This document shows positions 12,307 through 53,360 of a stretch of 64,000 nt of DNA, piece after piece (positions within the stretch are counted from its first letter, which is position 1; each line of letters begins with the position of its first letter). Below the pieces are notes generated by a model. It was not told the origin of the DNA. It made no database searches and worked only from the letters and a program-made list of their open reading frames with translations. The DNA is taken from positions 62,001 through 126,000 of IMG/VR virus record IMGVR_UViG_3300034283_001774; one strand, given 5' to 3'. The DNA comes from a virus. Made by a program: the position numbers and the translations under genes.

Positions 12307-12820
12307 TTTTGTAAAAGCTGAAAAAGGTACAACTGAAATGATTGAAGCTGTAAATCAGGCTTCAACTATTATTGATTTGTATCCTGAAATATTTCCACAC
12401 TTATATAAGCAAGGCTTTAAGTTGGAAAAGTATATTGAAAAGGGTGGTATGATACTGCAAGACGGTGTTGTTATCACTTTTGGAAAATATAAATCTCATG
12501 GTAGAATGAGTAAAAATGCTACTACATATAAAAAGAAAGGAGATTATATTCTTCATCAAATTGCAACAAATCACTCTAAAACAAATGCTTCAAAAGAAGT
12601 ATTAGATGAGTTTGTAGAATATTGTAAATCACAACATGCAGAGAATCTATTCTTAACCGTTAGGGCATTCAATTATAGAGCCGTATTATTTTATGAGAGA
12701 TATGGTTTTGTAAAAGATAGTGATATAACTTGGACTAGTAAAAAAGACGGAGTTATAAATGGTATAGTATTCAGATTGAGATTGGTTGCAAACAAAAATA
12801 TAGAAACAGTATGTATTTAG
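12299..12820 (+). CDS. GNAT-fold acyltransferase
   Basis: 173 residues with a GNAT C-terminal half: LHQIATNH near ~80-90, and LTVRAFNYRAVLFYERYGF (~118-136), the acyl-CoA-proximal motif of the family. The N-terminal ~75 residues are less typical. It overlaps asnB by 8 nt and the methyltransferase by 10 nt, so translation is coupled. The substrate is unknown. The phage Mu Mom DNA-modification enzyme has a GNAT fold, so DNA modification is one possibility given the neighbours. Confidence 0.75.
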   Translation: MLNFVKAEKGTTEMIEAVNQASTIIDLYPEIFPHLYKQGFKLEKYIEKGGMILQDGVVITFGKYKSHGRMSKNATTYKKKGDYILHQIATNHSKTNASKEVLDEFVEYCKSQHAENLFLTVRAFNYRAVLFYERYGFVKDSDITWTSKKDGVINGIVFRLRLVANKNIETVCI

Positions 12821-15316: not shown

Positions 15317-16036
15317 ATGAACAAAGCAAAATTAACAAGATTTATCCAAAAGTATAGTTTGGGTGGATTAGTAGAATCAGTTGCATGGAAAACGGAAGAT
15401 AACAAATTAGTTACTCGTTTCATATCCGATGACAAAACTGTATTGGGTGAAATTCAATTAGATAATTTCACATTTAGTGCACCTGATTTAGGAGTGTACA
15501 CAACATCAGCATTATCAAAATTACTTTCGGTAGTTGGTGAAGATATTGAGTTGGAAGCACAAGAAATTGAAGGTAAAGCTGTAAACCTTTTCGTTAAAAG
15601 CGAAAACACAAAGGTTCAGTTTCAATTGGCAGATTTGGCAGTTATTCCAAATGTACCAGATTTGAAAAAACTTCCTGATTTTGATGTTGATATTAATTTT
15701 GATGGTGCGTTTATTGATAAATTTATCAAAGCTAAAAACGCATTGAGTGATGTTGATACATTTACTATTCTTACTGAAAAGAAAGAATTAAAAGTTGTAT
15801 TGGGTTATTCAAATATTAACTCAAATAGAGTTGTGTTCGTAGTTGATAAAGCATATGCAGGTGATGTTAAACCAATTTCTTTCTCAGCAAAGTATTTGAA
15901 AGAAATCTTAACTGCAAATAAAGAGGCAACTGCGGTTGTACTTAAAGTATCAACACAAGGTATTTCGCACGTTGAATTTAAAATTGATGATTTCACTGCA
16001 AAATATTACCTAGTAGAACAACAATTAACTGCATAA
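15317..16036 (+). CDS. 45: Sliding clamp (processivity factor), T4 gp45-like
   Basis: Trimeric ring that tethers the polymerase and, in T4, activates late transcription. 239 residues against 228 in T4; the fold repeats (FTFSAPDLGVY, LSKLLSVVG; FSAKYLKEILTANKE) and the position just before the polymerase fit gp45. The stop codon overlaps the next ATG by one base. Identification is by context and overall pattern; gp45 has few invariant residues. Confidence 0.82.
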   Translation: MNKAKLTRFIQKYSLGGLVESVAWKTEDNKLVTRFISDDKTVLGEIQLDNFTFSAPDLGVYTTSALSKLLSVVGEDIELEAQEIEGKAVNLFVKSENTKVQFQLADLAVIPNVPDLKKLPDFDVDINFDGAFIDKFIKAKNALSDVDTFTILTEKKELKVVLGYSNINSNRVVFVVDKAYAGDVKPISFSAKYLKEILTANKEATAVVLKVSTQGISHVEFKIDDFTAKYYLVEQQLTA

Positions 16037-27205: not shown

Positions 27206-30200
27206 ATGGCAATAATAAAAAGAATACCAAAGGGTAGTCCCTTAACGGCGGCAGAAATGGATGCCAACTTGACGATTTTAGAAAACGTATCAAGTTCCGT
27301 AAATACATTATATACAACAACTGATAATTTAAATTCAACATTAACATCAGTATCTTCATCCGTATCGAATCTATCAACTTTAAGTGGACAATTAAGCGGA
27401 CAATTTACTGGTAGTGTTTTAATTTCTGGTAGTTTAAGATTTGATAATATTTCAACCGATGCTGTTGCAAGTGAAGTATTAGTTTACAATAGTTCTACAA
27501 AAACAATAGGAAAAACAACTTCAATAGCTAGTGGACCTGCTGGTACTGCTGGTAGTGGTGGTTCTTCTGGTACTTCCGGTAAAGATGGCACATCAGGAAG
27601 TTCAGGTACATCCGGTTCTTCTGGTACATCTGGTAAAGATGGCACATCAGGAAGTAGTGGTAGTTCTGGAACTTCTGGAAGTTCAGGTTCATCTGGAACT
27701 TCTGGAGAGAGTGGTACTTCCGGTTCATCTGGAACATCTGGTAGTAGCGGTTCATCTGGTACATCTGGTAAAGATGGTACATCTGGTTCATCGGGTTCAT
27801 CTGGAACTTCTGGACAAAATGGTGATAGATTCTCATCAACATCGAGTACTTCAAACAATATAAGCACTGGTTCTAAAAATTTCACAATAGGAACTGGATT
27901 ACAATGGACTCCTGGACAGGCTATTATTATTTCTGAAAATGCATCAAATGTATTAGAAGGAACTGTAACATCTTATAACAGCGGTACAGGTGATTTAGTG
28001 GTTAATATAACAACTACATCAGGTAGTGGTACTGGTATAACTTCATGGTATATAAATACGGCAGGTGCACCTGGTCAAAGTGGTTCATCTGGAACTTCTG
28101 GAAGCTCTGGTTCATCTGGAACTTCTGGTTCATCTGGTACATCTGGAAGTAGTGGTAGTTCTGGAACATCTGGTTCAAGTGGGTCTTCTGGTACATCCGG
28201 TAAAGATGGTACAACCGGTTTAGATGGTACAAGTGGTTCATCAGGAACTTCTGGAAGCTCTGGTTCATCTGGAACTTCTGGCTCATCTGGTTCATCTGGA
28301 ATAAGTGGAACTGCGGGAACATCTGGTTTAACAACAACTGTATTCCCTTATACTGGTTCTGCACATATTAGTGGTTCTCTGCATATTACCGGTTCTATAC
28401 GAATTGGTAAAACACAATATGGTGGTATGTTGTATGGTCCTACCGTTCAAATTTTAGATTTAGGTTCTGATTCTAGAGGAGCACAGGAAGAAAATTCTTC
28501 AATATTGTGGACTGATAAAAGTACTAATGCCAAAGGAGAACTTTATACAAAAGCTGGTAATCTCTATCATGAACTACATTTTAGAACCTTTGAAGCAGTT
28601 GCATTTGACGATGCTGATGTTACATTTGGTAAAAATTTGAATATTAGTGGTTCAATTACTTCATCTTTAAGAGAAGGATATGCTTGGGTAGGTGGTCCTA
28701 ATAATAGAACAATTTTAGTAGCAACATCTTCATTTGGTAGTGCTGGTAGTGGTACTGGAATATTTGCGGCAACCGGTTCGGTATTCGCAACAACAAATAA
28801 TATACAAATTACAGGTTCTCTACAAGTAAGTGGACCTTTATCTGCTTCACTTCCACAAGGATATGCTTGGGTTGGTGGAGTTAATGATATATCTAGAATA
28901 ATAGCTACATCTTCATTTGGAGCGATAACAGTATCTCAACAAGGTGGTAGTTCTTTTGGTTCAGTTCGTACAATACGATTCAATGGAGCCGTTGTTGCAG
29001 ATGATGGTGGCGGACAAGTAACTATAACAACCGGTGGTGGTGGTGGTGGACTTACAATTAATAGTGGTTCATTCTCCGCAGCTGCAACAACCACATTAAC
29101 ATTGGATAATACAATTCGTGCTACGAATAGTGGTGGCGGTACCGTTGCACTTACTGTAGCCGGTGGTGTAGGCGGTGGGGGTTCAAATGGTACTTCTGGT
29201 ACATCTGGTAAAGATGGTGGTGGTGGAACTTCTGGTTCATCTGGAACCGCAGGAGTAAGTGGAAGTGGCGGTACATCTGGTACATCTGGTAAAGATGGCT
29301 CATCTGGAACATCTGGACTTAATGGTATTGGGGCACCTGGTACCGATGGTACATCTGGCTCATCTGGAATAACTGGTATAGGTGGAACAGCCGGTACATC
29401 CGGTTCAAGTGGTAGTTCTGGTACATCTATTGCATTAACAATAAATGATGATGTTGGACCTACATCTATTAGTGGTGTAAATCAAATAACATTTACCGGT
29501 GGGGCGGTTGTAACTAATACACCTGGTAGTGGACATATAACAATCACCGCAGGAACCGGTGGTGGTGCGGGTAGTGCAGGTTCATCTGGTAAAGATGGTA
29601 CATCCGGTACTTCCGGTAAAGATGGAACATTTGTTGGTTCATCTGGTACATCTGGTTCATCTGGATTTGGTAAAGATGGAACATCTGGTGTAAATGGTTC
29701 AGATGGTACTTCCGGTACATCTGGTATATCTGGATTTTTTGGGTCATCTGGTACATCTGGTAAAGATGGAACATTTATTGGTTCATCTGGTTCATCGGGA
29801 TTAAATGGAGAAAACGGTACTATGGGTACTAGTGGTAGCTCTGGAACTTCTGGTACAAGTGGTTTAACCGCAGCAGGAGCAACTGCTGGTAGTGGTGGTA
29901 CATCTGGAACAAATGGTGCACCTGGAGCAAATGGTTCTGATGGTACGTCTGGTTCATCTGGTAAAAATGGTTTAGACGGTACTGCATTTGGTTCATCTGG
30001 TACATCTGGTGTGACTGGTACAAGTGGTGTTGATGGCACATCTGGTACGAATGGTACATCTGGAACTTCTGGAGTTGCATCCCTATTAGCTGTAACTGGA
30101 AGTGTAAATAATGGGTTAGTTAGATACGAAAATTCACCTGAAAGATTATTTGTAAGTAATACTCTCACATTCGATGGAGCAGAAATGAAACTAACAGGTT

Positions 30201-30457
30201 CTATGTTTGTTAGTGGTGCGATAAGTGCATCTGGATTTAACATATATGCAACCGGTACACCTGAAATAACATCGGCAACTAACTTAAACTTAACAGCTGG
30301 TACTGCGGTAATTGTAACGCAATCACCAATGAGAATGGCAACATTTACTGATGTACAAACTGGAAGTTTAACTCCTGCGAATGGAGATATGATATACAAT
30401 TCAACTACTCATAAATTTATGGGATACGCGAATGGGGCTTGGGTACAATTGCATTAA
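27206..30457 (+). CDS. Collagen-like tail fiber / virion fiber, Gly-Ser-Ser and Gly-Thr-Ser repeats
   Basis: 1083 residues. The N-terminus (~1-110) is Ser/Thr-rich and probably trimeric, beginning PKGSPLTAAEMDANL as in other phage fibers. Gly-X-Y triplet blocks (mostly GSS, GTS, GKD) lie at about residues 118-201, 286-375, 661-741 and 788-957, separated by beta-rich segments; two copies of a GYAWVGG...ATSSFG unit lie at ~490-580. The C-terminus (960-1083) is a receptor-binding or trimerisation candidate. Few prolines occur, so stability probably comes from polar triplets. The blocks offer hundreds of Ser/Thr for O-glycosylation, and glycosyltransferases flank the gene. Confidence 0.88.
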   Translation: MAIIKRIPKGSPLTAAEMDANLTILENVSSSVNTLYTTTDNLNSTLTSVSSSVSNLSTLSGQLSGQFTGSVLISGSLRFDNISTDAVASEVLVYNSSTKTIGKTTSIASGPAGTAGSGGSSGTSGKDGTSGSSGTSGSSGTSGKDGTSGSSGSSGTSGSSGSSGTSGESGTSGSSGTSGSSGSSGTSGKDGTSGSSGSSGTSGQNGDRFSSTSSTSNNISTGSKNFTIGTGLQWTPGQAIIISENASNVLEGTVTSYNSGTGDLVVNITTTSGSGTGITSWYINTAGAPGQSGSSGTSGSSGSSGTSGSSGTSGSSGSSGTSGSSGSSGTSGKDGTTGLDGTSGSSGTSGSSGSSGTSGSSGSSGISGTAGTSGLTTTVFPYTGSAHISGSLHITGSIRIGKTQYGGMLYGPTVQILDLGSDSRGAQEENSSILWTDKSTNAKGELYTKAGNLYHELHFRTFEAVAFDDADVTFGKNLNISGSITSSLREGYAWVGGPNNRTILVATSSFGSAGSGTGIFAATGSVFATTNNIQITGSLQVSGPLSASLPQGYAWVGGVNDISRIIATSSFGAITVSQQGGSSFGSVRTIRFNGAVVADDGGGQVTITTGGGGGGLTINSGSFSAAATTTLTLDNTIRATNSGGGTVALTVAGGVGGGGSNGTSGTSGKDGGGGTSGSSGTAGVSGSGGTSGTSGKDGSSGTSGLNGIGAPGTDGTSGSSGITGIGGTAGTSGSSGSSGTSIALTINDDVGPTSISGVNQITFTGGAVVTNTPGSGHITITAGTGGGAGSAGSSGKDGTSGTSGKDGTFVGSSGTSGSSGFGKDGTSGVNGSDGTSGTSGISGFFGSSGTSGKDGTFIGSSGSSGLNGENGTMGTSGSSGTSGTSGLTAAGATAGSGGTSGTNGAPGANGSDGTSGSSGKNGLDGTAFGSSGTSGVTGTSGVDGTSGTNGTSGTSGVASLLAVTGSVNNGLVRYENSPERLFVSNTLTFDGAEMKLTGSMFVSGAISASGFNIYATGTPEITSATNLNLTAGTAVIVTQSPMRMATFTDVQTGSLTPANGDMIYNSTTHKFMGYANGAWVQLH

Positions 30458-30463
30458 TAAAAT

Positions 30464-32029
30464 ATGAGAGAATATAACGTTATCTTAAAAAAGGATGTAG
30501 ATTACGATGGGTTTTGGAATGATATAGAAAGTGATACCGATGGTGGCAAACTTTACATTCCAAATCGTAGAGTAGAATTTACAAACGAAAGACCTACATC
30601 TTTACGTCAATGTTGGTACATGCTGACAGATGAAGAAGCTGAGCAATTAAAATTAGATGATAGAGTGCTGGCTGTAGAGATTCCACCTGAACATAGAACT
30701 GATATTCAAATAGGACATCGTGCAATTCAAACAGGTGATTTTACAAAAACAACATCCGATAGTGGTACTTATATCAATTGGGGATTGATACGATGTAATT
30801 CTACCTCAAATGTATATGCCAGTGGAACAACTACTACTTTGAACTATAATTATACATTAACCGGTGACGGTGTGGATGTAGTAATTCAAGATAGTGGATT
30901 ACAAGTAGACCATCCGGAATTTCAAGATGAAAATGGAGTAAGTAGAGTACAACAAATTAACTGGTCAAGTGAAAGTGGAGTTTCATTCACACAAAATGCA
31001 AATCATTATAGAGATTTTGATGGACATGGTACACATTGTGCCGGTATAGCTGCGGGTAAAACATATGGTTGGGCCAAAAAGGCAAGAGTATATGCTCAAA
31101 AAATAAGTGGATTAGAGGGAAGTGGCGATAGTGGTACTGGTATTTCTACAACATATGCATTTGATGCGATTAAAGGTTGGCATAATAATAAGTCATTGAA
31201 TTTTACAACAGGTGTAAAAAGACCAACCGTAGTTAATATGAGTTGGGGATATTACACTTCATTTGCAGCATTAACCGAAATTAATTATAGAGGAACATCA
31301 TATACGGGAGCATCTATTGATACTAATACTGAAAGAATAAATAATTTTGGATTAATGTCAGCGGCATCATCTATATCAAATGTAAGAATATCATCGGTTG
31401 ATACTGATATTCAAGAAATGATTGATGCTGGAATTATAGTATGTATAGCAGCTGGTAATCGTTCTCATAAAATTGATGTTCCTAGTGGGACAGATTATAA
31501 TAATTATTATAACGATGGTACTGGTGCAACTTATTATCATAGAGGTTCTTCTCCGTTTGATGATGAAGCGTTTATTGTTGGTAATATTGATAGTACGGTT
31601 TATGATACAAATAATGACCAAAAATCAACATCATCGGAAACAGGTCCAGGTGTAACAATATACGCACCGGGTACCGATATTATGAGTGCATGTTCAAATA
31701 CAAATAGATTTAGTGGACAATCCTATTACTTAAACGCATCATATAAACAATGTAATATTAGTGGTACATCTATGGCATCTCCACAAGTAGCAGGTGTATG
31801 TGCTTTGTTTTTAGAAGCAAATCCTAGATTAACACCTGCACAATTAAAATCGGCAATATTAGCAAATGCAGGTACTGCGATATACGATACCGGTGTGAAC
31901 AACGATTGGACAAATTATAGAAGTTTAAAGGGTGGTAGTTTAAAGGTGTTATATAATAAGTTTAATTCTGAAAAAACATTTTCCGCTACAAACATATCAT
32001 TTTCTGGTATTGGGTTTAAAATACGATAA
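30464..32029 (+). CDS. Subtilisin-like serine protease (S8 family)
   Basis: 521 residues. The catalytic triad is visible: D143 in VIQDSG, H188 in DGHGTHCAG, S436 in GTSMASPQ; oxyanion N332 lies in AAGNRS. Residues ~1-110 precede the protease domain and could be a propeptide or virion-attachment domain; no signal peptide is seen. It begins 6 nt after the fiber and ends in a terminator, so it belongs to the fiber transcription unit. It may mature the fiber or digest host surface protein from the virion. An unusual phage protein. Confidence 0.88.
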   Translation: MREYNVILKKDVDYDGFWNDIESDTDGGKLYIPNRRVEFTNERPTSLRQCWYMLTDEEAEQLKLDDRVLAVEIPPEHRTDIQIGHRAIQTGDFTKTTSDSGTYINWGLIRCNSTSNVYASGTTTTLNYNYTLTGDGVDVVIQDSGLQVDHPEFQDENGVSRVQQINWSSESGVSFTQNANHYRDFDGHGTHCAGIAAGKTYGWAKKARVYAQKISGLEGSGDSGTGISTTYAFDAIKGWHNNKSLNFTTGVKRPTVVNMSWGYYTSFAALTEINYRGTSYTGASIDTNTERINNFGLMSAASSISNVRISSVDTDIQEMIDAGIIVCIAAGNRSHKIDVPSGTDYNNYYNDGTGATYYHRGSSPFDDEAFIVGNIDSTVYDTNNDQKSTSSETGPGVTIYAPGTDIMSACSNTNRFSGQSYYLNASYKQCNISGTSMASPQVAGVCALFLEANPRLTPAQLKSAILANAGTAIYDTGVNNDWTNYRSLKGGSLKVLYNKFNSEKTFSATNISFSGIGFKIR

Positions 32030-32126: not shown

Positions 32127-32756
32127 ATGATAAATGTTACATACGCCATTACAGTTTGTAATGAAATAAATGAAATCACAACTTTAGTTGATTTCCTACA
32201 ACCTAGGATAAAATCCGAAGATGAAATACTGGTTCAGTATGATTCCGATTCTGCAACATCGCAGATAAAAGATTATTTAAATATAATCTCACAAATACAT
32301 AAGAATATAAGAGTAATTTCATTTCCTCTTAATAAAGATTTTGCATCATTTAAGAATAATTTAAAAAATAATGCAAACGGTATTTTTATTTTTCAAATTG
32401 ATGCAGATGAAATGCCATCCGAATATTTGGTTGAAAATATTCACAACTTTTTAGATTATAATAAAGATGTAGACCTTTTCTTCGTACCTAGAATTAATAC
32501 GGTGAATGGTTTAACTGCCGAACATATTAAGAAATGGGGATGGAAAGTTAATGAAAACGGTTGGGTAAATTTTCCTGACTATCAAACTCGTATTTATAGA
32601 AGAACTTCTGAAATAGAATGGAGTGGTAAGGTACATGAAAGGATAGCGGGATATAATACATTATCAATATTACCTCAGGAAGAAATTTATTGTTTGTATC
32701 ATCATAAGCAAATTGAAAGACAAGAAAAACAAAACGCTTTATATGATACAATCTAA
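32127..32756 (+). CDS. Glycosyltransferase family 2-like
   Basis: 209 residues, GT-A fold. VTYAITVCNEINEI opens the nucleotide-binding fold; QIDADEMPSEYL carries the DxD metal motif; WSGKVHERIAGY is the usual late motif of this small GT2 group. First gene of the glycan operon; overlaps the next by 14 nt. Confidence 0.85.
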   Translation: MINVTYAITVCNEINEITTLVDFLQPRIKSEDEILVQYDSDSATSQIKDYLNIISQIHKNIRVISFPLNKDFASFKNNLKNNANGIFIFQIDADEMPSEYLVENIHNFLDYNKDVDLFFVPRINTVNGLTAEHIKKWGWKVNENGWVNFPDYQTRIYRRTSEIEWSGKVHERIAGYNTLSILPQEEIYCLYHHKQIERQEKQNALYDTI

Positions 32757-33744
32757 AATAGCCTTCCTTACTGAAATGGGGTTTATTGGTAAAATACCGG
32801 CACATCATCCAAATATGAGAACCGAATTTGCTTGGATGCACGCTTTAGACGCAGACCATTATAATATTCATCTATTTGGTGCGGATAAACATTTGATTAA
32901 TTATGACCATGTGTTTATTATATTTCCAAAAGGCAAAGTATTTTTAAGTGCAGAGGGAAGTAAAATTATAGATGGTATTAATCCATTTTCAGAATTATTA
33001 CAACAAGATATAGTTGGTAAATTGAAGGAAAGAGGTAATAAGAAAGTCCATTATATTCAAGAAGGACCGCATTGGTGGTATAATGATTATACTATATCAG
33101 ACCAAATCTATTTCTTTAATTTCTTACAATCATGTGATTCAATCTTTACGCACAATGATTCAGATATATATTATTATAAGGGATTGTTTCCTAATAAAAA
33201 AGTAAGACCTATCGGTACATTGATGATTGATACTCTAATCAAAGACATAGTACCAACAAAAGAAGATAAGGCAATTATAGGTGGTAACTTCGCAAGATGG
33301 TATGGTGGGTTTGAAAGTTATATGATAGCTGGTAACTTTGATGTTCCTATTTGGGCACAAACATCTCATGCTATGAGAGAGAATGAAAATGTAATTGATA
33401 ACTTAACTCACTTACCAAGATTAATGTGGAGTGAATGGATGACCGTATTATCAACATTCAAATACGCAGTTCATATGATGCCAACGGTAGCAGCTGGTAC
33501 GTTTGCCCTAAATTGTGCATACTTTGGTATCCCTTGTATTGGAAATCAAGATGTAGATACACAATTACTTTGTCACCCATCCTTATCGGTAGCTGTAAAT
33601 GATTTAGAAAGTGCAAGAGAATTGGCAATAAGATTGAGAGATGACAAACAATTTTACAATGAATGTTCAGAAATGGCAAAGGCTAATTATGAAGCTTGTT
33701 TTTCAAAAGAACTTTGGTTAAAAAGAATAATGACAGAATTATGA
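32743..33744 (+). CDS. Putative GT-B glycosyltransferase
   Basis: 333 residues. I chose the ATG at 32743 (MIQSKIAFL) over an upstream in-frame start. The C-terminal part AAGTFALNCAYFGIPCIGN and following acidic helix resemble the donor site of GT-B enzymes, and an inverting-type HYIQEGPHWWYND lies mid-protein. No close family recognised. It lies inside the glycan operon, with ATGA overlap to the next gene. Confidence 0.65.
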   Translation: MIQSKIAFLTEMGFIGKIPAHHPNMRTEFAWMHALDADHYNIHLFGADKHLINYDHVFIIFPKGKVFLSAEGSKIIDGINPFSELLQQDIVGKLKERGNKKVHYIQEGPHWWYNDYTISDQIYFFNFLQSCDSIFTHNDSDIYYYKGLFPNKKVRPIGTLMIDTLIKDIVPTKEDKAIIGGNFARWYGGFESYMIAGNFDVPIWAQTSHAMRENENVIDNLTHLPRLMWSEWMTVLSTFKYAVHMMPTVAAGTFALNCAYFGIPCIGNQDVDTQLLCHPSLSVAVNDLESARELAIRLRDDKQFYNECSEMAKANYEACFSKELWLKRIMTEL

Positions 33745-34511
33745 TAACAGTTATATTAAATGGTTACAAAAGAGCGGAAAATCTTAATGAACAATTAGAG
33801 GCATTAAGAAACCAAACGGTTCAGCCGGATGAAATACTTTTTTGGTATAATAATCCTGGTGATAATGACCTGATTAATTATGATATTGGTACTGAAATAG
33901 CGGGTGCTTATTGTAATTACAACTTCGGTGTATGGGCACGATTTGCTTTTGCATTTATGGCTAAAAATCCATATGTTTGTATTTTTGATGATGATACTAT
34001 ACCTGGTTCAAAATGGTTAGAGAATTGCATGAATACAATGAAAACGAATGAAGGACTATTGGGTACGGTTGGATTAATTTATCCACAACCACTTCCACCG
34101 GAACAATCATCATACTACGAACCATATGCTAGAGTTGGTTGGCCTGAAGGTGGAAATAATGAACATACATTAGAAGTTGATTTGGTTGGGCATAGTTGGT
34201 TCTTTAAAAAGGAATGGTTATCTCATATGTGGAGAGAACAACCTGAATCTAAATATAATACCTGTGGTGAAGATATGCACTTCTCATATATGTTGCAGAA
34301 GTATGCGGGAATTAAAACATTTGTACCACCACATCCAAAGAATGATAAACAAATGTGGGGAAGTATAAAAGGAGCACAATATGGTGGCGATGCTAACTCA
34401 CTATGGGAATCAAATCAGAGAAGTGTGGAAGGTGTACCATTTAGAGCATTGATGAATGAATATTTTCATAACCAAAGAATGAAAGGTTGGAAACTTGTAT
34501 ATGAAAAATAA
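33741..34511 (+). CDS. Glycosyltransferase family 2-like
   Basis: 256 residues. ITVILNGYKRAENLNEQL is the GT-A start; FDDDTIPGSKWLENC is the metal-binding DxD-like motif. GEDMHFSYMLQKYAGI is the typical catalytic [E/D]D region. ATGA overlap with the preceding gene fixes the start at 33741. Confidence 0.85.
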   Translation: MITVILNGYKRAENLNEQLEALRNQTVQPDEILFWYNNPGDNDLINYDIGTEIAGAYCNYNFGVWARFAFAFMAKNPYVCIFDDDTIPGSKWLENCMNTMKTNEGLLGTVGLIYPQPLPPEQSSYYEPYARVGWPEGGNNEHTLEVDLVGHSWFFKKEWLSHMWREQPESKYNTCGEDMHFSYMLQKYAGIKTFVPPHPKNDKQMWGSIKGAQYGGDANSLWESNQRSVEGVPFRALMNEYFHNQRMKGWKLVYEK

Positions 34512-36150: not shown

Positions 36151-37341
36151 ATGGTAAATATTTTTAGAAAAGAAGTAGATATAGAAAAGTACTTTATTGT
36201 TACTTATGATTTGGCATCTGAAACTAATTTAAGAGATGCCGCTTGGAATTTGGCAATAGGCCAAAGTGTAGGTAATCCAAATGTAAGAAATCAATGGGAA
36301 ACTGATGAGCTATTTGAGAGAAATAGTTGTTTAGTATTGGGAGATGAAGATGAGCTTAAATCTATTAATAATGGATTAGTTAAGGTAGCGTTTCCTGTTA
36401 TAAACATTGATTTTAAAACGGATGGGATTGCACATTTGTTGGTAAATATTATGGGTGGGCAGATGGATATTGATAATATTACAAAATGTGCTGTTAAAGA
36501 TATCTGGTTTCCACAACATATTGAAGATTTATTTTTAGGACCTAAATTTGGTATTAAAGGTATTAGAGAATACACTAAAACATTTGATAAACCGTTGTTT
36601 GGTGCAATTGTGAAACCTAAAATTGGTATCACTCCGCAGACATTATTAGAGATGGTTAAAGAATTAGTAGAAGGTGGCGTTAATTTCATTAAAGAAGATG
36701 AGATTATGAGTAATCCCGCTTTTTGTACAATTGAAGAAAGAGTACCATTGATTGCAGAATATTTAAAAGATAAAAATGTAGTTTATTGTGTATCTATTCA
36801 TTCAGATTATCCACATATTTTAGATAGAGTAAAGAGAGTATATGAGTTGGGTGGTAATGGTGTTCATATTAATTTTTGGTGTGGTATGGGGGTTTATAAG
36901 GCTGTAAGAGAATTAGACTTACCAATATTTGTACATTTTCAAAAAAGTGGTGATAAAATTCTAACCAATAGAAATCACGCTTATTATATTGATTGGACGG
37001 TAATTTGTAAGTTAGCAGGTATGATGGGTGTTGATTTTATTCACGCCGGAATGATTGGTGGATATTACAAATGGCCTGAAGATGAGGTAATTGATTCAAT
37101 GAAAGTATTGCACCAATATGGTGTAATGCCGGCATTAAGCTGTGGTTTCCATCCTGGTCTTACTCAATGGGTAACTGATAAAGTTGGTATTGATTATATG
37201 GCAAATGTTGGTGGTGCACTTCATGGGCATCCTGATGGTACTTTGGCTGGTGCAAAAGCTATGAGGCAGAGTATAGATAAAGAATATGGTAGAGAATACA
37301 ATAAAGCAATTCAAAAATGGGGAGTAAATAAAAATGAATAA
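36151..37341 (+). CDS. RuBisCO-like protein (form IV-like RuBisCO large-subunit homolog)
   Basis: 396 residues with the RuBisCO large-subunit layout: N-terminal alpha/beta domain (~1-135) and TIM barrel (~145-380). Aligned by eye to plant RbcL, it keeps K155 and K157 (GAIVKPKIG, like K175/K177), the metal triad K181, D183, E184 (FIKEDE, like K201/D203/E204, Lys carbamylated in the family), H298 (like H327), S330 (like S379) and G354/G355. It lacks counterparts of E60, N123 (His here), H294 (Gln264), R295 (Lys265) and K334 (Tyr305). CO2 fixation is therefore unlikely; enolisation of a sugar or related substrate is possible. It overlaps the epimerase gene by 8 nt, inside a sugar operon. Confidence 0.9.
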   Translation: MVNIFRKEVDIEKYFIVTYDLASETNLRDAAWNLAIGQSVGNPNVRNQWETDELFERNSCLVLGDEDELKSINNGLVKVAFPVINIDFKTDGIAHLLVNIMGGQMDIDNITKCAVKDIWFPQHIEDLFLGPKFGIKGIREYTKTFDKPLFGAIVKPKIGITPQTLLEMVKELVEGGVNFIKEDEIMSNPAFCTIEERVPLIAEYLKDKNVVYCVSIHSDYPHILDRVKRVYELGGNGVHINFWCGMGVYKAVRELDLPIFVHFQKSGDKILTNRNHAYYIDWTVICKLAGMMGVDFIHAGMIGGYYKWPEDEVIDSMKVLHQYGVMPALSCGFHPGLTQWVTDKVGIDYMANVGGALHGHPDGTLAGAKAMRQSIDKEYGREYNKAIQKWGVNKNE

Positions 37342-38338
37342 GAAAGACCCAATATTAATATGTTTTGGTACTAGACCAGAATGGTTGAAAGTAAAACCAT
37401 TGATTGATATTATGGATAAGAAAGAATATAAACTTTTATTCACAGGTCAACATGAAGATTTACTTTCGGATGTAAAAGTTGATTTTAGAGTTAATATAAA
37501 AGAATCCTTTCGTTATACTAGATTAGATTCTATTATGATTAGTTGTATGGAATATTTTCCAAATTACAAATTTAGAGGTGTGTTGGTGCAAGGCGATACG
37601 GCTTCCGCTTTTGCATGTGCATTAGCAGCTTATCATAGAGGTATTAAGATATATTATATGGAAGCTGGGTTAAGGAGTTACGATTTAGAAAACCCATATC
37701 CTGAAGAAGGATATAGACAGATGATAGCTCGTTTAGCAGATATTAATTTTGCACCAACACAGCTTTCTGCTGAAAATTTAGATGCGGAAAGAGTAAAAGG
37801 AGATATCCATATAGTTGGGAATACTGTATTGGATAATCTTATGAAGTATGATAAAGGTAGTTATGGTGATACTATTCTAGTAACAATGCATCGTAGAGAA
37901 AATCATCATTGGTTAGATGAATGGTTTAATGTAATTAATCAGTTAGCAATTGATTATCCACAATACAAATTTGTATTACCGATTCATCCAAATCCAAACG
38001 TACAAAAGCATAAGAATTTACTAACAAATATTAATATCGTAGAACCTTTAACGCACAATGAAACGATTAATATTCTTAAAGATTGTAAGTTGGTAGTTAC
38101 CGATAGTGGTGGATTGCAAGAAGAAGGTTCTTTCTTTAATAAGAAAATAATTGTGTGTAGAAAAACAACCGAAAGACCTGAAGGTATAAAAACCGGTCAT
38201 CTTTATATGTGCGAAGAACCAACTAAACTTAAAGAATTATTTGGTGAGTTGGAAAAGAATTCGTATATTTGTAAACCTTGTCCATATGGAGACGGTAGAG
38301 CAGCGGAAAAAATTAAAAAGATATTAGATGCAGAATAA
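37334..38338 (+). CDS. wecB: UDP-N-acetylglucosamine 2-epimerase (WecB-like)
   Basis: Converts UDP-GlcNAc to UDP-ManNAc or hydrolyses it to ManNAc. The family motifs are present: FGTRPEWLKVKPL, FTGQH, GDTASAF, EAGLRSYD, PEEGYRQM, HRREN, HPNPNV, TDSGGLQEEG and RKTTERPE. 334 residues, slightly shorter than E. coli WecB (376). Overlaps the RuBisCO-like gene by 8 nt and the next gene by 11 nt, so the three are translationally coupled. Confidence 0.9.
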   Translation: MNKKDPILICFGTRPEWLKVKPLIDIMDKKEYKLLFTGQHEDLLSDVKVDFRVNIKESFRYTRLDSIMISCMEYFPNYKFRGVLVQGDTASAFACALAAYHRGIKIYYMEAGLRSYDLENPYPEEGYRQMIARLADINFAPTQLSAENLDAERVKGDIHIVGNTVLDNLMKYDKGSYGDTILVTMHRRENHHWLDEWFNVINQLAIDYPQYKFVLPIHPNPNVQKHKNLLTNINIVEPLTHNETINILKDCKLVVTDSGGLQEEGSFFNKKIIVCRKTTERPEGIKTGHLYMCEEPTKLKELFGELEKNSYICKPCPYGDGRAAEKIKKILDAE

Positions 38339-39050: not shown

Positions 39051-39738
39051 ACTACCGTTAGTAATATACACGCATACGGATATGAAAGATGTATGGCCAT
39101 CTTTTTTTGGGCAATTAAATAAATTTATGCCTGATTATAAACTCTATGTATGTGTTAATGAAATTGATAAGGCACTTCCAGAAAATTGCTTACAAATCAC
39201 ATATGATGATTCTAAAAAATATACAAATCGTATTTTAGAATGTTTGGATAAAATAAATGAAGATGTGATATTATTTTTTCACGAAGATATGATTTTATAT
39301 TCCAATCCACTTCACGTATATTTAGAAAAATATTATGAATATATTTTAACCGATAAAGCTAATAGTATAAAATTATTATATGCTGGTTCGGGTGGAACAA
39401 AATCGGAATTTGAAGATACTTTGGTTCAAAATGATTTATCTAAATTTTCAATACAACCAACTATTATTAAAACTAAAACATTTAAGGAGTTAATAGAAAA
39501 TCATTTAGAATTAACAATTTATGAATTTGAAGATTCTATAAAGTTGAATGAAAAAGATTTTTCAGCAACGAATGGTATTGAGAAAAAAAGAGGAATATTC
39601 CATTATGATAGTTTTGTATTTCCATACATAGCAACTGCGATTAATAAAGGTAAATGGAATTTAACAGAATATCAAACCGAATTAAATCCTATTTTTGAAG
39701 AATATAATATAAACCCGTTTGATAGAGGAATTTGGTAA
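39043..39738 (+). CDS. Putative glycosyltransferase, 231 aa
   Basis: Start chosen at the ATG of ATGAATAA, overlapping the upstream stop by 8 nt, instead of a longer frame that starts inside the previous gene. Region LPLVIYTHTDMKDVW opens a GT-A-like fold and ILFFHEDMILYS has a D-x-D-like acidic pair (HED). Family not certain. Confidence 0.65.
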   Translation: MNKLPLVIYTHTDMKDVWPSFFGQLNKFMPDYKLYVCVNEIDKALPENCLQITYDDSKKYTNRILECLDKINEDVILFFHEDMILYSNPLHVYLEKYYEYILTDKANSIKLLYAGSGGTKSEFEDTLVQNDLSKFSIQPTIIKTKTFKELIENHLELTIYEFEDSIKLNEKDFSATNGIEKKRGIFHYDSFVFPYIATAINKGKWNLTEYQTELNPIFEEYNINPFDRGIW

Positions 39739-39739
39739 T

Positions 39740-41116
39740 ATGACAAAATTAATTATCTTTGACTTAGATGGTGTACTAGTTGAAGCAAAAGAAATACACT
39801 ACAATACATTAAACCAGGCATTGAGAGAAATCGAAATTCTAACTGGTAATTCTTATGTAATTACCGAAGCTGAACATCTATCAATATACGATGGATTAAA
39901 GACAACTCAAAAGCTTGAAATGCTTACTAAAAATAAAGGGTTACATACCGATTTCTATGATGAAATTTGGTATAGAAAACAACACTTAACTATTGAGGCA
40001 ATATCCCAATTACAAACTAATCATGTATTGGTTTCGGTATTCAAAGAGTTGAGAGATAGAGGTTATCAATTAGCATGTGCTTCAAATTCAATTAGAAGGT
40101 CTGTATTGGTTATGTTATCAAAGATAGGACTTATTGAGTATATGGATTTAATCCTTTCTAATGAGGATGTAAAGAACTCTAAACCACATCCTGAAATGTA
40201 TTGGAAGGCTATGAGTATGATGGGTGTATTACCAGAAGAAACGTTAATTGTAGAAGATTCACCACCCGGTTTGTTAGCTGCGAGTAGAAGTAGAGCAAAT
40301 GTTTTGAGAGTAGATAATCCACATGATTTGACATTAGAAAAAATAGTAAACAAATTAAACGAAAAGAAAGTTATGAGTAAACCAAAATGGCAAGGTGGTA
40401 AGATGAACGTACTTATCCCAATGGCAGGTGCAGGAACTAGATTTCAACAAGCCGGATATACGTTCCCTAAACCACTAATTGATGTGGAAGGTAAACCAAT
40501 GATTCAGGTTGTAGTTGATAACCTAAACATAGATGCTACATTTATCTATGTAGTTCAGAAATCACATAGAGAGAAGTATAACTTGGATACCCTTTTAAAC
40601 TTAATTACGCCTAATTGTAAGATTGTGGAAGTTGATGGATTGACAGAAGGTGCAGCATGTACTACTCTATTGGCAAAAGAATTGATTGATTCCGATGCAC
40701 CTTTATTGATGGCAAACTCTGACCAATTTATAGAGTGGGATTCAAATGAGTTTATGTATAAGATGATTGAACAAAAAGTTGATGGTGGTATCCTTTCATT
40801 TCATTCAACTCATCCTAAATGGTCATTTGCTAAAGTGGATGAGTATGGTTATGTAACCGAAGTACAAGAGAAGAATCCAATTTCAGATATAGCAACTGTT
40901 GGTGTTTACTATTGGGCTAAAGGTTCTGATTATGTAAAGTATGCAGAACAAATGATTAATAAAAATATAAGAGTAAATAATGAATTCTATGTTTGTCCTG
41001 TTTTCAATGAAGCAATTGGTGATGGTAAAAAAATAAAAACATTCAATATTGAAAAAATGTGGGGATTAGGTACACCTGAAGATTTAAAATATTACCTAGA
41101 AAATTACAATAAATAA
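39740..41116 (+). CDS. Fusion: HAD phosphatase plus sugar nucleotidyltransferase
   Basis: 458 residues. Residues ~1-215 are a HAD phosphatase/phosphomutase-like domain (FDLDGVLVEAKE; ASNSIRRS; KPHPEMY; VEDSPPGLLAA). Residues ~222-458 are a nucleotidyltransferase (PMAGAGTRFQQAGYTFPKP; ANSDQFIEWD) related to the gene at 35114. Removing or moving a phosphate and then adding a nucleotide would make a nucleotide sugar in one polypeptide. An internal ATG at 40403 could produce the second domain alone. Confidence 0.88.
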   Translation: MTKLIIFDLDGVLVEAKEIHYNTLNQALREIEILTGNSYVITEAEHLSIYDGLKTTQKLEMLTKNKGLHTDFYDEIWYRKQHLTIEAISQLQTNHVLVSVFKELRDRGYQLACASNSIRRSVLVMLSKIGLIEYMDLILSNEDVKNSKPHPEMYWKAMSMMGVLPEETLIVEDSPPGLLAASRSRANVLRVDNPHDLTLEKIVNKLNEKKVMSKPKWQGGKMNVLIPMAGAGTRFQQAGYTFPKPLIDVEGKPMIQVVVDNLNIDATFIYVVQKSHREKYNLDTLLNLITPNCKIVEVDGLTEGAACTTLLAKELIDSDAPLLMANSDQFIEWDSNEFMYKMIEQKVDGGILSFHSTHPKWSFAKVDEYGYVTEVQEKNPISDIATVGVYYWAKGSDYVKYAEQMINKNIRVNNEFYVCPVFNEAIGDGKKIKTFNIEKMWGLGTPEDLKYYLENYNK

Positions 41117-41127
41117 ACTTATAAACT

Positions 41128-41820
41128 ATGATGTTAGATTTTAACCAATTGTTAGAAAAATACAATATTAAAATAAATGGTGTTCTACACGTTGGGGCAC
41201 ATGAAGGCGGTGAAACGTTAGCTTATGTAAAAGCTGGTATAAAAGATGTGATACTCGTTGAAGCAAATCCATTTAGATTCAGCAATTTAAGCGAATCATT
41301 AAATACCGGTAGATATGTTACTTGGTGTTCACCACTTACATATTCTTATTTTAACGATAGTGAAGCCCAAATTCTAAAAGGATACAAAGCATATAACTAC
41401 GCAGTTAGCGATAAAGAAGATGGTGTTATTACTTTTAATTTGAGTAACTACGATGGTGGTACTGATTCTATTTTTAAAATCAATGAGTGGGGTAGAGATT
41501 CATCTTGGGTACCGTATGAACATATTGCTGAAATTGAAGTACCAACCATTACATTAGATAAATTGGTTGAAAATAAAAATACTTACAATTTCTTAAATAT
41601 GGATGTTGAAGGTGCTGAGTTGATTGTTTTAAGTGGAGCTACCGAAGTATTAAAGCATTTAGATTGTATTATGTTAGAAACACAGGATAAAATAAGATTT
41701 GAAGGTTCTTGTACTAGAGAACAATTGATTGAATTTTTAAAACCACATGGATTTGAACTTAAAGAGTATCATGATACTGGTAAAGAGTGGGGTGATTGTC
41801 TTTTTTTAAAAAATAAATAA
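41128..41820 (+). CDS. FkbM-family methyltransferase
   Basis: 230 residues. GVLHVGAHEGGETLAY is the SAM-binding motif I with preceding acidic chemistry; YNFLNMDVEGAELIVLSGA is the FkbM signature (DVEGAE). These enzymes O-methylate sugars. The two Met at 41128 and 41131 are both possible starts; I keep the first. The stop codon overlaps the next ATG (TAATG). Confidence 0.88.
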   Translation: MMLDFNQLLEKYNIKINGVLHVGAHEGGETLAYVKAGIKDVILVEANPFRFSNLSESLNTGRYVTWCSPLTYSYFNDSEAQILKGYKAYNYAVSDKEDGVITFNLSNYDGGTDSIFKINEWGRDSSWVPYEHIAEIEVPTITLDKLVENKNTYNFLNMDVEGAELIVLSGATEVLKHLDCIMLETQDKIRFEGSCTREQLIEFLKPHGFELKEYHDTGKEWGDCLFLKNK

Positions 41821-42980
41821 TGAATAGAAAAATTACATTTTGCATACCATCTAAAAACAATCTTCGTTATCTTAAAAATAGTATTCAATCTATTAAAGCA
41901 AATAGTTTACATCAAAACGAAATTATAGTATATGTGGATGCGGATAACGATGGTACAAAAGAATGGTTAGATGAAAATCGTATAAAGTATTTGGTTAATG
42001 ATACCGATACACCGAAGGGAATTGCGTATGGATACAATAGATGTATTGAAGCAGCAACTACACCAATAGTATGTATGTTTCATGCCGATATGTACATGGG
42101 GCAGTGGTTTGATGATGCTATATTAAAACATCTAAAACCACTTTCGGTAGTTAGTGGTACTCGTATAGAACCACCACTACATCCAAAGGGATTAGAAAAG
42201 ATTGTAGAAGATTTTGGTATGTATCCAGAAGATTTCAAAAAAGCAGAATTTGATAAGTTTGTTTATGAGATGAGATATGTGTATGAAGGAAAAACAACTA
42301 AAGGAATATTTGCACCTTGGGCAATATATAAAGAAGATATTACCTCAATTGGTATGCATGATGAGAGATTTCATTCTTATCACGAAGATTCTGATATATT
42401 TAATCGTTTTATTTTAAATGGTTATGAGATAATTCAAACGTGGGAAGCATTGGTATATCATTTGACATGTAGAGGTGGACAATTTCAAGATGGAATTGAA
42501 CAGGTAACCAAAGATGAAGCATTTCATAAAATGAAAAATAGTGCATTTAAAAACTATATTAGAAAATGGGGACATTTTGTTAAAAACGATGAATACCAAC
42601 ATCCGATTATACCACATAAATACGATATATGTTTTAACATAAAAAACACAAAAATAGAAGCATTGGATTTTTTAGAACCTTGGTGTTCAAATATCAAAAC
42701 AGATTTATCGCAAGAAAAAATAAATGAGTTCATCTCAAAACAACAAGATGGATGTATTGTACCATTGATTGATAAAATAAATAACGCAACTGAAAGTGAT
42801 ATTGAAATTGAATTTGATATAAATCAAATTACACAAGAAGCAATAAATTTTATAGTTGATTTGAGTTTAATTTTAGATGATAATCAATTAGAAAAAGGAG
42901 AATATCAGTTTGGTATTTTCAAATTTAAAGTAAATAGAATTTATCATATGGAAACCGAACTAATAAAATATAATATCTAA
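41820..42980 (+). CDS. Glycosyltransferase family 2 with C-terminal extension
   Basis: 386 residues. ITFCIPSKNNLRYLKNSI and YVDADNDGTKEWL form the nucleotide-binding part; FHADMYMGQWFDD carries DxD-like acidic residues; HEDSDIFNRFIL is the acceptor-side region. The last ~130 residues (~255-386) are acidic and of unknown function. The stop codon shares its last base with the next ATG. Confidence 0.85.
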   Translation: MNRKITFCIPSKNNLRYLKNSIQSIKANSLHQNEIIVYVDADNDGTKEWLDENRIKYLVNDTDTPKGIAYGYNRCIEAATTPIVCMFHADMYMGQWFDDAILKHLKPLSVVSGTRIEPPLHPKGLEKIVEDFGMYPEDFKKAEFDKFVYEMRYVYEGKTTKGIFAPWAIYKEDITSIGMHDERFHSYHEDSDIFNRFILNGYEIIQTWEALVYHLTCRGGQFQDGIEQVTKDEAFHKMKNSAFKNYIRKWGHFVKNDEYQHPIIPHKYDICFNIKNTKIEALDFLEPWCSNIKTDLSQEKINEFISKQQDGCIVPLIDKINNATESDIEIEFDINQITQEAINFIVDLSLILDDNQLEKGEYQFGIFKFKVNRIYHMETELIKYNI

Positions 42981-45581: not shown

Positions 45582-46052
45582 ATGATATATTGGTTTACAG
45601 GACAACCGGGTGCCGGAAAAACTATTCAGGCTACAAAACTTAGAGAATTTCTTCAAACTGAAAAACGTAATTGGAGAAAAGACGTATTTCACATTGACGG
45701 TGATGATTTGAGAGAATTGACACTTAACAAAGATTATTCAGAAACAGGTAGAGTGCAAAATATAAAGAACGCACAATTAATTGCTTTTTTCTTAAATGCA
45801 AAAGGATGTGATGTTGTTGTATCATTGGTATCGCCGTACAAGGAATTAAGAGAAGAATTTAAAACTGAATGTGGAGAGAATATTGTTGAAATATATGTAC
45901 ACACAACTCGTAAAAGAGGTAGAGAAGAATTCAAAGTACAGGAGTATGAAGCACCTGAAGTGAATTTTTTTGATATGAATACTACATCGGAAACTCCAAT
46001 ACAATCTTTCACCAAATTAATACATTTTTTGAAAGATACAAATAAGTTATAA
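45582..46052 (+). CDS. cysC: Adenylylsulfate (APS) kinase-like
   Basis: 156 residues. Walker A is GQPGAGKT (7-14), the APS-binding part is HIDGDDLRELT, VVSLVSPYKELR matches the SPY-x-x-R motif, and EYEAPE matches the family's C-terminal YEAPE. The normal length is ~200, so it is a little short. It phosphorylates APS to PAPS, the sulfate donor. The nearby DUF2061 and HxGH genes, and a sulfotransferase at 52614, suggest a sulfation role rather than general sulfur assimilation. Confidence 0.8.
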   Translation: MIYWFTGQPGAGKTIQATKLREFLQTEKRNWRKDVFHIDGDDLRELTLNKDYSETGRVQNIKNAQLIAFFLNAKGCDVVVSLVSPYKELREEFKTECGENIVEIYVHTTRKRGREEFKVQEYEAPEVNFFDMNTTSETPIQSFTKLIHFLKDTNKL

Positions 46053-50744: not shown

Positions 50745-51208
50745 TTTATATATCACATAGAGGAAACGTAAACGGAAAAATAGAAGAAGCTGAAAATAAG
50801 CCAGAATATATTGATGATGCACTTCAAATGGGATTTGATGTTGAGGTTGATGTTTGGTACATAGATGGTAAATGGTGGCTGGGGCATGATGGTCCGCAAT
50901 ACGAAATAGATTTTAATTGGATAGACGATAGAAGTGCTAGAGTATGGGTACATTGTAAGAATAAGCAGGCTGTTGAATACCTTACTGAAAACGATTATGA
51001 GGCGGCCAATATTAATTGGTTTTGGCATGAGGAAGATACAATGACTTTGACATCGTTTAATTATGTTTGGGTTTATCCTGGTAAACAACCGATTAAGAAA
51101 AGTATAGCCGTAATGCCTGAAATATACAACGATGACGTTTCCAAATGCAGCGGAATATGTTCAGATTATATTCAAAAATACAAAGATGAGAATTTATCCA
51201 CCAAATAA
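50741..51208 (+). CDS. Glycerophosphodiester phosphodiesterase-like protein (GDPD/PI-PLC fold)
   Basis: 155 residues. YISHRGNV (His-Arg-Gly), then ENKPEYIDDALQMGFDVEVDVW and LGHDGPQY match the GDPD fold's HRG...ExD...HD motifs. It is short for a full GDPD (normally ~250), so part of the barrel is missing. It may act on lipid-linked or teichoic-type head groups; function unproven. Overlaps the SET gene by 23 nt. Confidence 0.72.
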   Translation: MIYISHRGNVNGKIEEAENKPEYIDDALQMGFDVEVDVWYIDGKWWLGHDGPQYEIDFNWIDDRSARVWVHCKNKQAVEYLTENDYEAANINWFWHEEDTMTLTSFNYVWVYPGKQPIKKSIAVMPEIYNDDVSKCSGICSDYIQKYKDENLSTK

Positions 51209-51587
51209 AATTTATATTTCAAAAAGTCCTGTACATGGATATGGTATATTCGCAAATGAAATAATAGATGCGAATGAAATTATAGAAGAATGCCCTATAT
51301 ATGATTTAAAAATTCAAAAAGGAGAAATGAGTCCCTTAATGAATGATTATCGTTTTAACTGGCCACAAGGTGCTGGTTCGGAATGGCAAAAGCAGGTTTT
51401 GGCATGGGGATATGGGTGTTTATATAATCATTCTGAAAGTGCAAATGCATATTGGCGTTCTAATTTAGAAAAAGAAACATTTGAGTTTGTTTCCAATAGG
51501 CGAATTGAAAAGGATGAAGAAATATTTGTTTGGTATGGTGGTGTGAATTATTGGCAAGATGGTAGAACTAATACGAATGTAATATGA
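51186..51587 (+). CDS. SET-domain protein
   Basis: 133 residues. SPVHGYGIFANEII, YNHSESANAYW and VSNRRIEKDEEIFVWYG are the SET-domain GxG, NHS and Y motifs, in order. Typical SET domains methylate lysine with SAM. Start chosen at the ATG at 51186, inside the upstream gene. The target might be a host or virion protein. Overlaps the next gene by 4 nt. Confidence 0.82.
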   Translation: MRIYPPNKIYISKSPVHGYGIFANEIIDANEIIEECPIYDLKIQKGEMSPLMNDYRFNWPQGAGSEWQKQVLAWGYGCLYNHSESANAYWRSNLEKETFEFVSNRRIEKDEEIFVWYGGVNYWQDGRTNTNVI

Positions 51588-52613: not shown

Positions 52614-53360
52614 TTGAAAAAAACAAAAATATTAGTTACAGGCTTTCCACATACTGGCACATCTATTCTTAAATCTAAATTGGGAGAATGTTCCAATTTA
52701 TACGAAGTGCCTTTTGAAACCCCATTTGTAAGACCAGAAGATATACATTATTCTGGTGATAGAGAAAACATTTTAATAAAATACCCAATGCTACCAGTTG
52801 ATATAAGAGCTGGTGGTATTGCATATACAAGACATCCTGATTCTCGGTACTATGAATATACAATCATTATGGTAATTAGAAATCCTTGGAATGTATATAC
52901 GGGTATGATTAAGGCAGGGAGTACTCCTATGAATAATTTAACAGTGGATGGTGGTAATTCCGAATATCATTCTAAAGTGGAGGAATATGAAGTTGCTGCT
53001 GAATTATTTAGACAAGCTAGAGATAATAACTATCCAAATATATACACAATTAGATATGAAGATTTCTTTCCAAATAATTTTGAAAAGTTACGTGAACTTA
53101 TGGATACGTTAGAGTTGGATTATACGGAAGAAATTTTTACAAATCGTACAAAAGATTATATCCATTGGCCTAACAAGCATTATGCTAATATAAAAGACGA
53201 TGAAACCTATAAATCCGATAGGTACGCATATAGAACTTGGCAGATAAACCAATCGTTTCAAAATATGAATGGTGAAGTTGATATTCCAGAAGAACTTAAT
53301 AAAATTCTAACGGAATCCGATATAATAAAGGAGCTGGGATATTCGGACCCGCGTAATTAA
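52614..53360 (+). CDS. Sulfotransferase-like (P-loop, PAPS-dependent)
   Basis: 248 residues. TGFPHTGTSILKSKL is the 5'-phosphosulfate loop; VIRNPWNVYTGMI is the 3'-phosphate site (R-x-P); TIRYEDFFPNNFEKL is the late family motif. Such enzymes move sulfate from PAPS to sugars or proteins. The start is TTG at 52614; no ATG in-frame is close. Matched with the APS kinase at 45582 it could sulfate a glycan. Confidence 0.8.
   Translation: MKKTKILVTGFPHTGTSILKSKLGECSNLYEVPFETPFVRPEDIHYSGDRENILIKYPMLPVDIRAGGIAYTRHPDSRYYEYTIIMVIRNPWNVYTGMIKAGSTPMNNLTVDGGNSEYHSKVEEYEVAAELFRQARDNNYPNIYTIRYEDFFPNNFEKLRELMDTLELDYTEEIFTNRTKDYIHWPNKHYANIKDDETYKSDRYAYRTWQINQSFQNMNGEVDIPEELNKILTESDIIKELGYSDPRN

Follow-up and report, generated by a model that had tools for sequence, protein, structure and literature searches.

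A RuBisCO-like protein family of phages and rare cellular genomes, encoded in a conserved sugar-nucleotide gene module

The locus

The record IMGVR_UViG_3300034283_001774 is a virus contig of 134,411 bp on which genes for a phage DNA polymerase, a ribonucleotide reductase, a clamp loader and tail fibres are present. The window analysed here, by which we mean the whole stretch of 64,000 nucleotides, has a G+C content of 33%. In a run of co-directional and partly overlapping genes it holds an ORF, starting with ATG, for a RuBisCO-like protein (RLP; Table 1). As the earlier note had described, a cupin gene flanks this ORF, ending one base before it, and an epimerase gene overlaps its end.

Most of the identified neighbors belong to glycan metabolism. 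The nucleotidyltransferase upstream of the cupin is closer to sugar-1-phosphate enzymes of the RmlA/heptose type than to ribitol-5-phosphate cytidylyltransferase (E 0.015). For the HAD part of the fusion protein downstream, the nearest models are those of beta-phosphoglucomutase, which it matches below their cut-offs (TIGR02009, 94 vs. 153.35 bits). The collagen-like tail fiber is a possible acceptor of the glycan; a subtilase-family protease (30464–32029; PF00082, E 1.6e-36) is encoded directly after it. Further upstream, three genes (12811–14040, 14019–15251, and 16036–17607) all match phrog_12517 and DNA methyltransferase families.

Table 1. Genes of the RLP region and of the second glycan patch (positions within the window)
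Feature	Position	Strand	Evidence and remarks
Collagen-like Gly/Ser/Thr-rich tail fiber	27206..30457	+	phrog_5073 tail fiber, E 5.9e-46
Family 2 glycosyltransferase	32127..32756	+	Pfam
Family 2 glycosyltransferase	33696..34511	+	Pfam
Sugar-phosphate nucleotidyltransferase (NTP_transferase), 242 aa	35114..35842	+	PF00483, 52.7 vs. cut-off 21.2 bits; conserved partner
Small cupin, 106 aa	35829..36149	+	Pfam Cupin_7, E 4e-4 (under cut-off); phrog_24762, E 4.8e-36; conserved partner
RLP, 396 aa	36151..37341	+	Pfam, model, structure match, alignment, tree
WecB-like UDP-GlcNAc 2-epimerase	37334..38338	+	TIGR00236, 229.2 vs. cut-off 210.15 bits; overlaps RLP 3′ end by 8 bases
HAD hydrolase fused to second nucleotidyltransferase	39719..41116	+	HAD_2, 104.1 vs. 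23.8 bits; PF00483, 41.7 vs. 21.2 bits
FkbM-family methyltransferase	41128..41820	+	TIGR01444, 68.2 vs. 37.7 bits
Family 2 glycosyltransferase	41820..42980	+	
GDPD-like minimal TIM barrel, 155 aa	50741..51208	+	Profile A2 vs. own genome, E 1.7e-62; conserved partner

A second glycan patch contains the gene for a protein resembling glycerophosphodiester phosphodiesterases (GDPD-like), about 13 kb downstream of the RLP. Pfam has no family for this protein at E ≤ 0.01, and a Foldseek search of the PDB with its model (155 residues, pLDDT 95.2) gave no match at E ≤ 0.001. Its profile (A2) finds the GDPD chain 7e0v at E 2.3e-4, and VIA-align superposes the model on GDPD 1o1z (Z 11.0, 144 residues, 3.3 Å). 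The small model aligns along the whole of phosphodiesterases of some 220–250 residues. Residues H6 R7 G8, E35, D37, and H49 D50 are invariant in 26 of 26 aligned rows; they correspond to HRG, E-x-D, and H-D, which we take to be the GDPD motifs. A SET-domain protein gene (51132–51587; PF00856, E 1.4e-12) overlaps the GDPD-like gene. The patch is flanked by an APS kinase (45582–46052; PF01583, E 2.7e-16) and a sulfotransferase-like protein (52614–53360; PF13469, E 6.9e-7), which suggests sulfation of a phage-directed glycan.

Fold and active site

The RLP is a member of the RuBisCO superfamily with a RuBisCO fold along its whole chain. It passes the Pfam cut-off for the large subunit (RuBisCO_large, 114.8 vs. 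30.1 bits, E 6.1e-33), while the N-terminal RuBisCO domain scores slightly under its own (19.5 vs. 20.7 bits). The AlphaFold model has a mean pLDDT of 92.2, and its top Foldseek match in the PDB is the archaeal form III enzyme 3kdo (E 9.7e-33, TMq 0.87). By VIA-align two structures tie as the best match at Z 43.2 and 2.4 Å: 2oem, the Geobacillus MtnW (366 residues, 29% identity), and 2cwx, a Pyrococcus RuBisCO (379 residues). The identification of a RuBisCO-like protein from the sequence by the earlier note thus stands. Six NCBIfam models match the protein, all well below their cut-offs, the highest being type III (178.8 vs. 497.45 bits), and no PHROGs family was found at E ≤ 0.001.

The CO2-fixing RuBisCOs of forms I–III are marked by the set E60, N123, K175, K201, D203, E204, H294, and K334. 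For the alignment of the RLP with RuBisCO and RLP references, the spinach numbering and the residue roles attached to it are our assumption. Half of the set is kept in the RLP (K175, K201, D203, and E204, as K155, K181, D183, and E184) and half is replaced (E60, N123, H294, and K334, by G37, G103, Q264, and Y305). Outside the set, R295 is replaced by K265, and K177, H327, S379, G381, G403, and G404 are kept as K157, H298, S330, G332, G354, and G355. The alignment thereby confirms the residues that the earlier note had listed as present or exchanged; at E60 and N123, where it saw no counterpart, there are glycines.

How far this active site is shared was counted over 81 phage rows and 23 rows from cells or metagenome-assembled genomes (MAGs). 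K155, K157, K181, D183, E184, Q264, S266, and G267 show no departure in any of them. Y305 is invariant wherever a row reaches the column (one truncated cellular row has a gap), and the replacements of E60, N123, H294, and K334 are likewise constant in all rows that reach those columns; gaps at some of them come from one or two truncated phage rows, and one of the 23 cellular/MAG rows is truncated. S330, G332, and G354 are likewise kept in the rows that reach them, and G355 in every row reaching it except two cellular ones. Position 298 varies: H298 holds for the window RLP, as the earlier note had it, but not as a constant of the family, with H in 42 and Q in 39 of the 81 phage rows. Position 265 is K in 50 and S in 31 of the phage rows and R in one cellular row, and the 31 rows with S265 all fall among those with Q298. 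Common to the family are Q38, G103, Q264, S266-G267, and Y305.

Replacement of four of the CO2-fixation residues makes CO2 fixation by the RLP unlikely, and since the four replacements never vary across the rows that reach them, the change is fixed and no sign of decay. With its fold and metal site kept and its catalytic residues altered, the protein is a form IV RuBisCO-like protein in the broad sense. The window RLP is thus a distant relative of RuBisCO that probably does not fix CO2.

Placement among RuBisCO forms

With a profile of the family (A1), the window RLP scores 722 bits and the cellular members 291–681 bits, against 206 bits or less for other rows of the RuBisCO superfamily. In a careful tree of 56 rows, all 35 family rows lie on one side of a branch of length 1.05 with support 100/100; on the opposite side are forms I and III, a single MtnW row, and an OiaX-like group. 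The last is the nearest group to the family, weakly so (90/74). For this tree 20 of the 76 rows had been dropped, the long branches L101, L098, and L255 among them. In a quick tree that retains all 76 rows, the 50 family rows are again united on a single side (SH-aLRT 99).

The RLP family is therefore one coherent group, apart from the sampled forms I and III, MtnW, and OiaX-type proteins. The choice of form IV over a CO2-fixing form in the earlier note agrees with this in the broad sense: by profile search and tree alike the RLP lies inside the RuBisCO superfamily and outside the sampled CO2-fixing forms I and III. It should be noted that form II, IV-Photo, IV-DeepYkr, IV-AMC, the R. rubrum type, and IV-GOS are not among the tree references, so that with form II, IV-Photo, the R. 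rubrum type, and IV-GOS absent the assignment extends to form IV in the broad sense only.

A family rich in phages and rare in cells

The earlier note had placed the protein in a phage. That it is phage-encoded holds, but a single phage is too narrow a setting. A scan of IMG/VR with the RLP as query gave 169 relatives; when an alignment of 29 representatives served as the query instead, 337 stretches encoding relatives came up. The best 80 of the 169, which are 54–100% identical to the RLP, were analyzed; together with the window they make 81 loci for the study of neighborhoods. One of the 80 (L001) has an RLP 100% identical to that of the window and probably belongs to the same phage, so that no more than 80 of the 81 loci can be independent. 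Near-duplicates or shared flanks exist among the others as well, and the 80 loci fall into 14 groups, with sizes of 40, 21, 4, 3, 2, and 2, plus eight single loci.

No INPHARED phage record matched the RLP, or a form I query, by tblastn, and of the 50 matches listed from the viral structure library none was RuBisCO-like (best TMq 0.41). IMG/VR scans with single form I, four-carbon-type RLP, and MtnW proteins, a kind of scan that reaches close relatives only, were without relatives, as was a scan with a form I+III alignment (two peptide patterns; form II left out).

Two peptide patterns found 23 RLP loci in a collection of genomes from 84,980 species. The homologues come from SAR11 single cells, Legionella, Azospirillum oleiclasticum, Elusimicrobia, Verrucomicrobia, Patescibacteria, archaea, and some MAG contigs, of which L082 and L101 may themselves be phage. 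Within the groups sampled their frequency is low, and the RLP is thus rare in cells. Matches are found in 4 of 22 Legionella genomes (near full length, in addition to one match of 41 residues), in 2 of 297 genomes of the order of the SAR11 genome, and in 2 of 279 of the phylum of L091; in the class of the Azospirillum genome (385) and the phylum of the Patescibacteria genome (379), the only genome with an RLP is the Azospirillum or the Patescibacteria genome itself. The SAR11 loci (L090, L092–L096, and L084–L086) have two kinds of RLP: a longer one (about 419 aa), which is flanked by two nucleotidyltransferases, and a shorter one (396 aa). The shorter kind nests among phage sequences, which suggests exchange between phage and host.

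A conserved four-gene module

Partners of the RLP were called by profiles, on the same strand and within 2 kb of it. One gene cluster ("Cluster 0", 108 members) proved to be mixed, with 64 short GDPD-like proteins and 44 longer members, of which those printed look glycosyltransferase-like; it was split and recounted with profiles. By this criterion the nucleotidyltransferase is a partner in 79 of the 81 phage loci, the GDPD-like gene in 63, and the cupin in 55, with all four genes present in 37. These counts come from profiles built largely from the same loci. Among the 29 representatives of less than 80% identity, the respective numbers are 27, 23, and 20. The most frequent orders in phages, with NTPt for the nucleotidyltransferase, are NTPt-cupin-RLP (22), NTPt-cupin-RLP-GDPD (20), and GDPD-NTPt-RLP (17). 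For 1,760 of 3,160 pairs of loci no other gene cluster is shared, and the module is thus present in more than one genomic background. Some loci are nonetheless not independent of each other, since 61 of 80 fall into two groups linked by at least three shared flanking gene clusters.

The cellular loci show the same association. Of the 23, 20 have a nucleotidyltransferase close to the RLP and in the same orientation (the rest being one with it on the opposite strand and two short contigs), 13 a same-strand GDPD-like gene, and 7 a cupin; in 4 the complete set of four shares one strand. Two of these four, Azospirillum and Elusimicrobia, both have the order GDPD-RLP-cupin-NTPt. The long SAR11 forms are arranged as GDPD-NTPt-RLP-NTPt and the Legionella loci as RLP-NTPt. 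As for the cupin, 26 of the 81 phage loci have none within 2 kb, and it is missing from 9 of 10 SAR11 and 3 of 3 Legionella loci.

The nucleotidyltransferase, the cupin, the RLP, and the GDPD-like protein thus form a conserved module that is found in phages and in unrelated cells. The sugar-nucleotide operon seen by the earlier note holds as a context, but not with the epimerase as partner. We rejected the epimerase as a core member, as it lies within six genes of the RLP in only 5 of 81 loci. The partners also occur without the RLP: seven Synechococcus phage regions (L259–L265) have no RLP and yet carry the nucleotidyltransferase (7/7), the GDPD-like gene (6/7), and the cupin (2/7). Part of the co-occurrence therefore reflects shared glycan islands, and the partners have other uses. 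In the Synechococcus phages S-SM2 and Bellamy, an aldolase gene lies near the GDPD-like gene. The gene set recurs in many fragments from phages as well as in a few microbes, and this points toward an as yet undescribed step of surface-sugar synthesis.

Possible function

We favor the view, and think it rather likely, that the RLP belongs to a separate branch of RuBisCO-like proteins, one that probably does not carboxylate and that serves glycan biosynthesis through an enolase or isomerase step on a keto-sugar phosphate. The metal site and the lysines of RuBisCO's enolization step are intact and parts required for carboxylation are not, which fits proton-transfer chemistry on such a substrate. 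The kept glycines fit one phosphate, and the changed sites of R295 and K334 argue against a bisphosphate. In the scheme that we propose, K181 would be carbamylated and hold Mg2+ together with D183 and E184. A keto-sugar monophosphate would be enolized with K155 as the acid/base, and re-protonation at another position would give isomerization or epimerization. The cupin would then act on the product of the RLP, a HAD or mutase step would lead to the 1-phosphate, and the nucleotidyltransferase would convert this to an NDP-sugar, from which phage glycosyltransferases would add the sugar to virion proteins or the host surface. On the same sugar unit, a phosphodiester would be formed or cleaved by the GDPD-like protein.

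Another reading puts the phosphodiester at the center, the outcome of the module being a phosphodiester-linked substituent instead of a glycosidic NDP-sugar. The RLP would yield a ketose or polyol phosphate, the nucleotidyltransferase would activate it as a CDP-type small sugar or polyol, a LicD-like transferase would attach it, and the GDPD-like protein would edit the diester. The GDPD fold is indeed frequent in the module, and in 3 of 3 Legionella loci (L102–L104) a gene with a motif that we presume to be LicD-like lies divergently beside the RLP-nucleotidyltransferase pair. However, a regular expression for the LicD-like context matched nothing in the window. In the 81 phage loci it had only two hits, both chance-like: a protein of 138 aa in L045 and the L071 cupin. 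The nucleotidyltransferase, moreover, resembles the RmlA/heptose sugar-1-phosphate enzymes more than the ribitol-5-phosphate enzyme. On balance we consider this reading unlikely. Decarboxylation of a 3-oxo sugar-acid phosphate to a sugar phosphate, as by OiaX, appears improbable. The OiaX-like group is the weakly supported neighbor in the careful tree, and departures at N123, H327, and S379 are seen in the OiaX reference as well, but the RLP reaches only 139.7 bits with the NCBIfam OiaX equivalog model (cut-off 700), and H294, R295, and K334 of the OiaX reference are, by our account, absent from the RLP family.

A methionine-salvage enolase or isomerase (of the MtnW or R. rubrum type), borrowed for sulfur metabolism, is very improbable in spite of the tie of MtnW as best structural match. 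The scores with the NCBIfam MtnW equivalog models are 149.3 and 125.3 bits (cut-offs 409 and 513.6), the family stands apart from the single MtnW row in the tree, and the neighbors that could be identified are glycan genes. That the RLP is a true CO2-fixing RuBisCO carried as an auxiliary metabolic gene is hardly credible, given the replaced residues in every member that reaches the columns, the position of the family outside the sampled forms I and III, and the glycan context. This reading has precedent nonetheless. Viral rbcL is annotated or listed as a carbon-fixation gene in the available parts of several surveys (PMC12607003, PMC8506154, PMC13390420; annotated likewise in PMC12615777). 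In the accessible text of the last, one divergent viral gene (rbcL1), co-expressed with rbcS, gave carboxylase activity in lysate, and the auxiliary metabolic genes were 25–36% similar to known genes (PMC12615777). That activity argues against a blanket reinterpretation of viral rbcL.

The sugar-phosphate role that we prefer has a wider form, which we offer tentatively. The four-gene module could be an undescribed route to an activated sugar, with a new reaction of the RLP as its signature step, used mostly by phages but also by SAR11, Azospirillum, and a few other microbes. To our knowledge, the RuBisCO-like proteins characterized so far have roles in carbon, sulfur, or sugar-acid metabolism. 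If true, supply of a nucleotide sugar would extend the uses of the RuBisCO fold and name an enzyme for unusual sugars of phages or surfaces. The same route could account for marine RuBisCO-like orphans and for some of the viral "rbcL" now counted as CO2-fixing. The Sorcerer II (GOS) data, as described in the part of the paper at hand, included 65 marine RuBisCO homologues outside the known clades (PMC1821046), and the available portion of a review names a clade IV-GOS (PMC10173188). Some viral "rbcL" sequences published as CO2-fixing may belong to the RLP family. All 80 inspected IMG/VR relatives (the best 80 of 169) lack residues required for CO2 fixation, which bears on such claims, and the conserved RLP signature, made up of G37-Q38, N42-P43, G103, Q264-x-S-G, and Y305, provides a simple test for published viral rbcL sequences.

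Comparison with known systems

Our search of the literature for the RLP family or its context found no description of this module, and the accessible sections of four papers contain no phage RLP of this kind (PMC9875498, PMC13059738, PMC8139981, PMC12168267). That viruses encode RuBisCO-like proteins was already on record: the available text of a landfill study groups its viral RbcL with "RbcL-like" proteins and also mentions an IMG/VR sample containing viral rbcL. There viral RbcL is listed under CO2 fixation, and that text mentions no glycan module (PMC12607003).

Among cellular enzymes, the archaeal form III RuBisCOs gave the best NCBIfam score and the best Foldseek match, but they lie on a separate branch, and E60, N123, H294, and K334 are replaced in the RLP family. 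MtnW, the 2,3-diketo-5-methylthiopentyl-1-phosphate enolase of form IV (YkrW type), resembles the RLP in its fold (2oem) and in the K/D/E of the metal site. The two differ at K177, N123, H294, and K334, where the MtnW reference has V, K, H, and S and the RLP family K, G, Q, and Y, and in their context, which is methionine salvage for MtnW and glycan for the RLP family. OiaX, a 3-oxo-isoapionate-4-phosphate decarboxylase, is likewise of form IV, and plasmid rows of this kind, some form I genes included, are 23–31% identical to the RLP. The three residues named above that its reference keeps are all changed in the window RLP, and OiaX-related RLPs are accompanied by a gene for a four-carbon acid sugar kinase in 6 of 6 annotated records.

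The pairing of an RLP with a cupin has a counterpart in R. rubrum. The cupin of that system, the MTXu-5P sulfurylase, is absent from the 15 PDB matches that our cupin profile gave at E ≤ 1. As far as the available part of the source goes, the R. rubrum 5-methylthioribulose-1-phosphate isomerase, itself an RLP, and the sulfurylase act in sequence on keto-pentose phosphates, the RLP before the cupin, in a pathway that is different from the one proposed here (PMC4958253).
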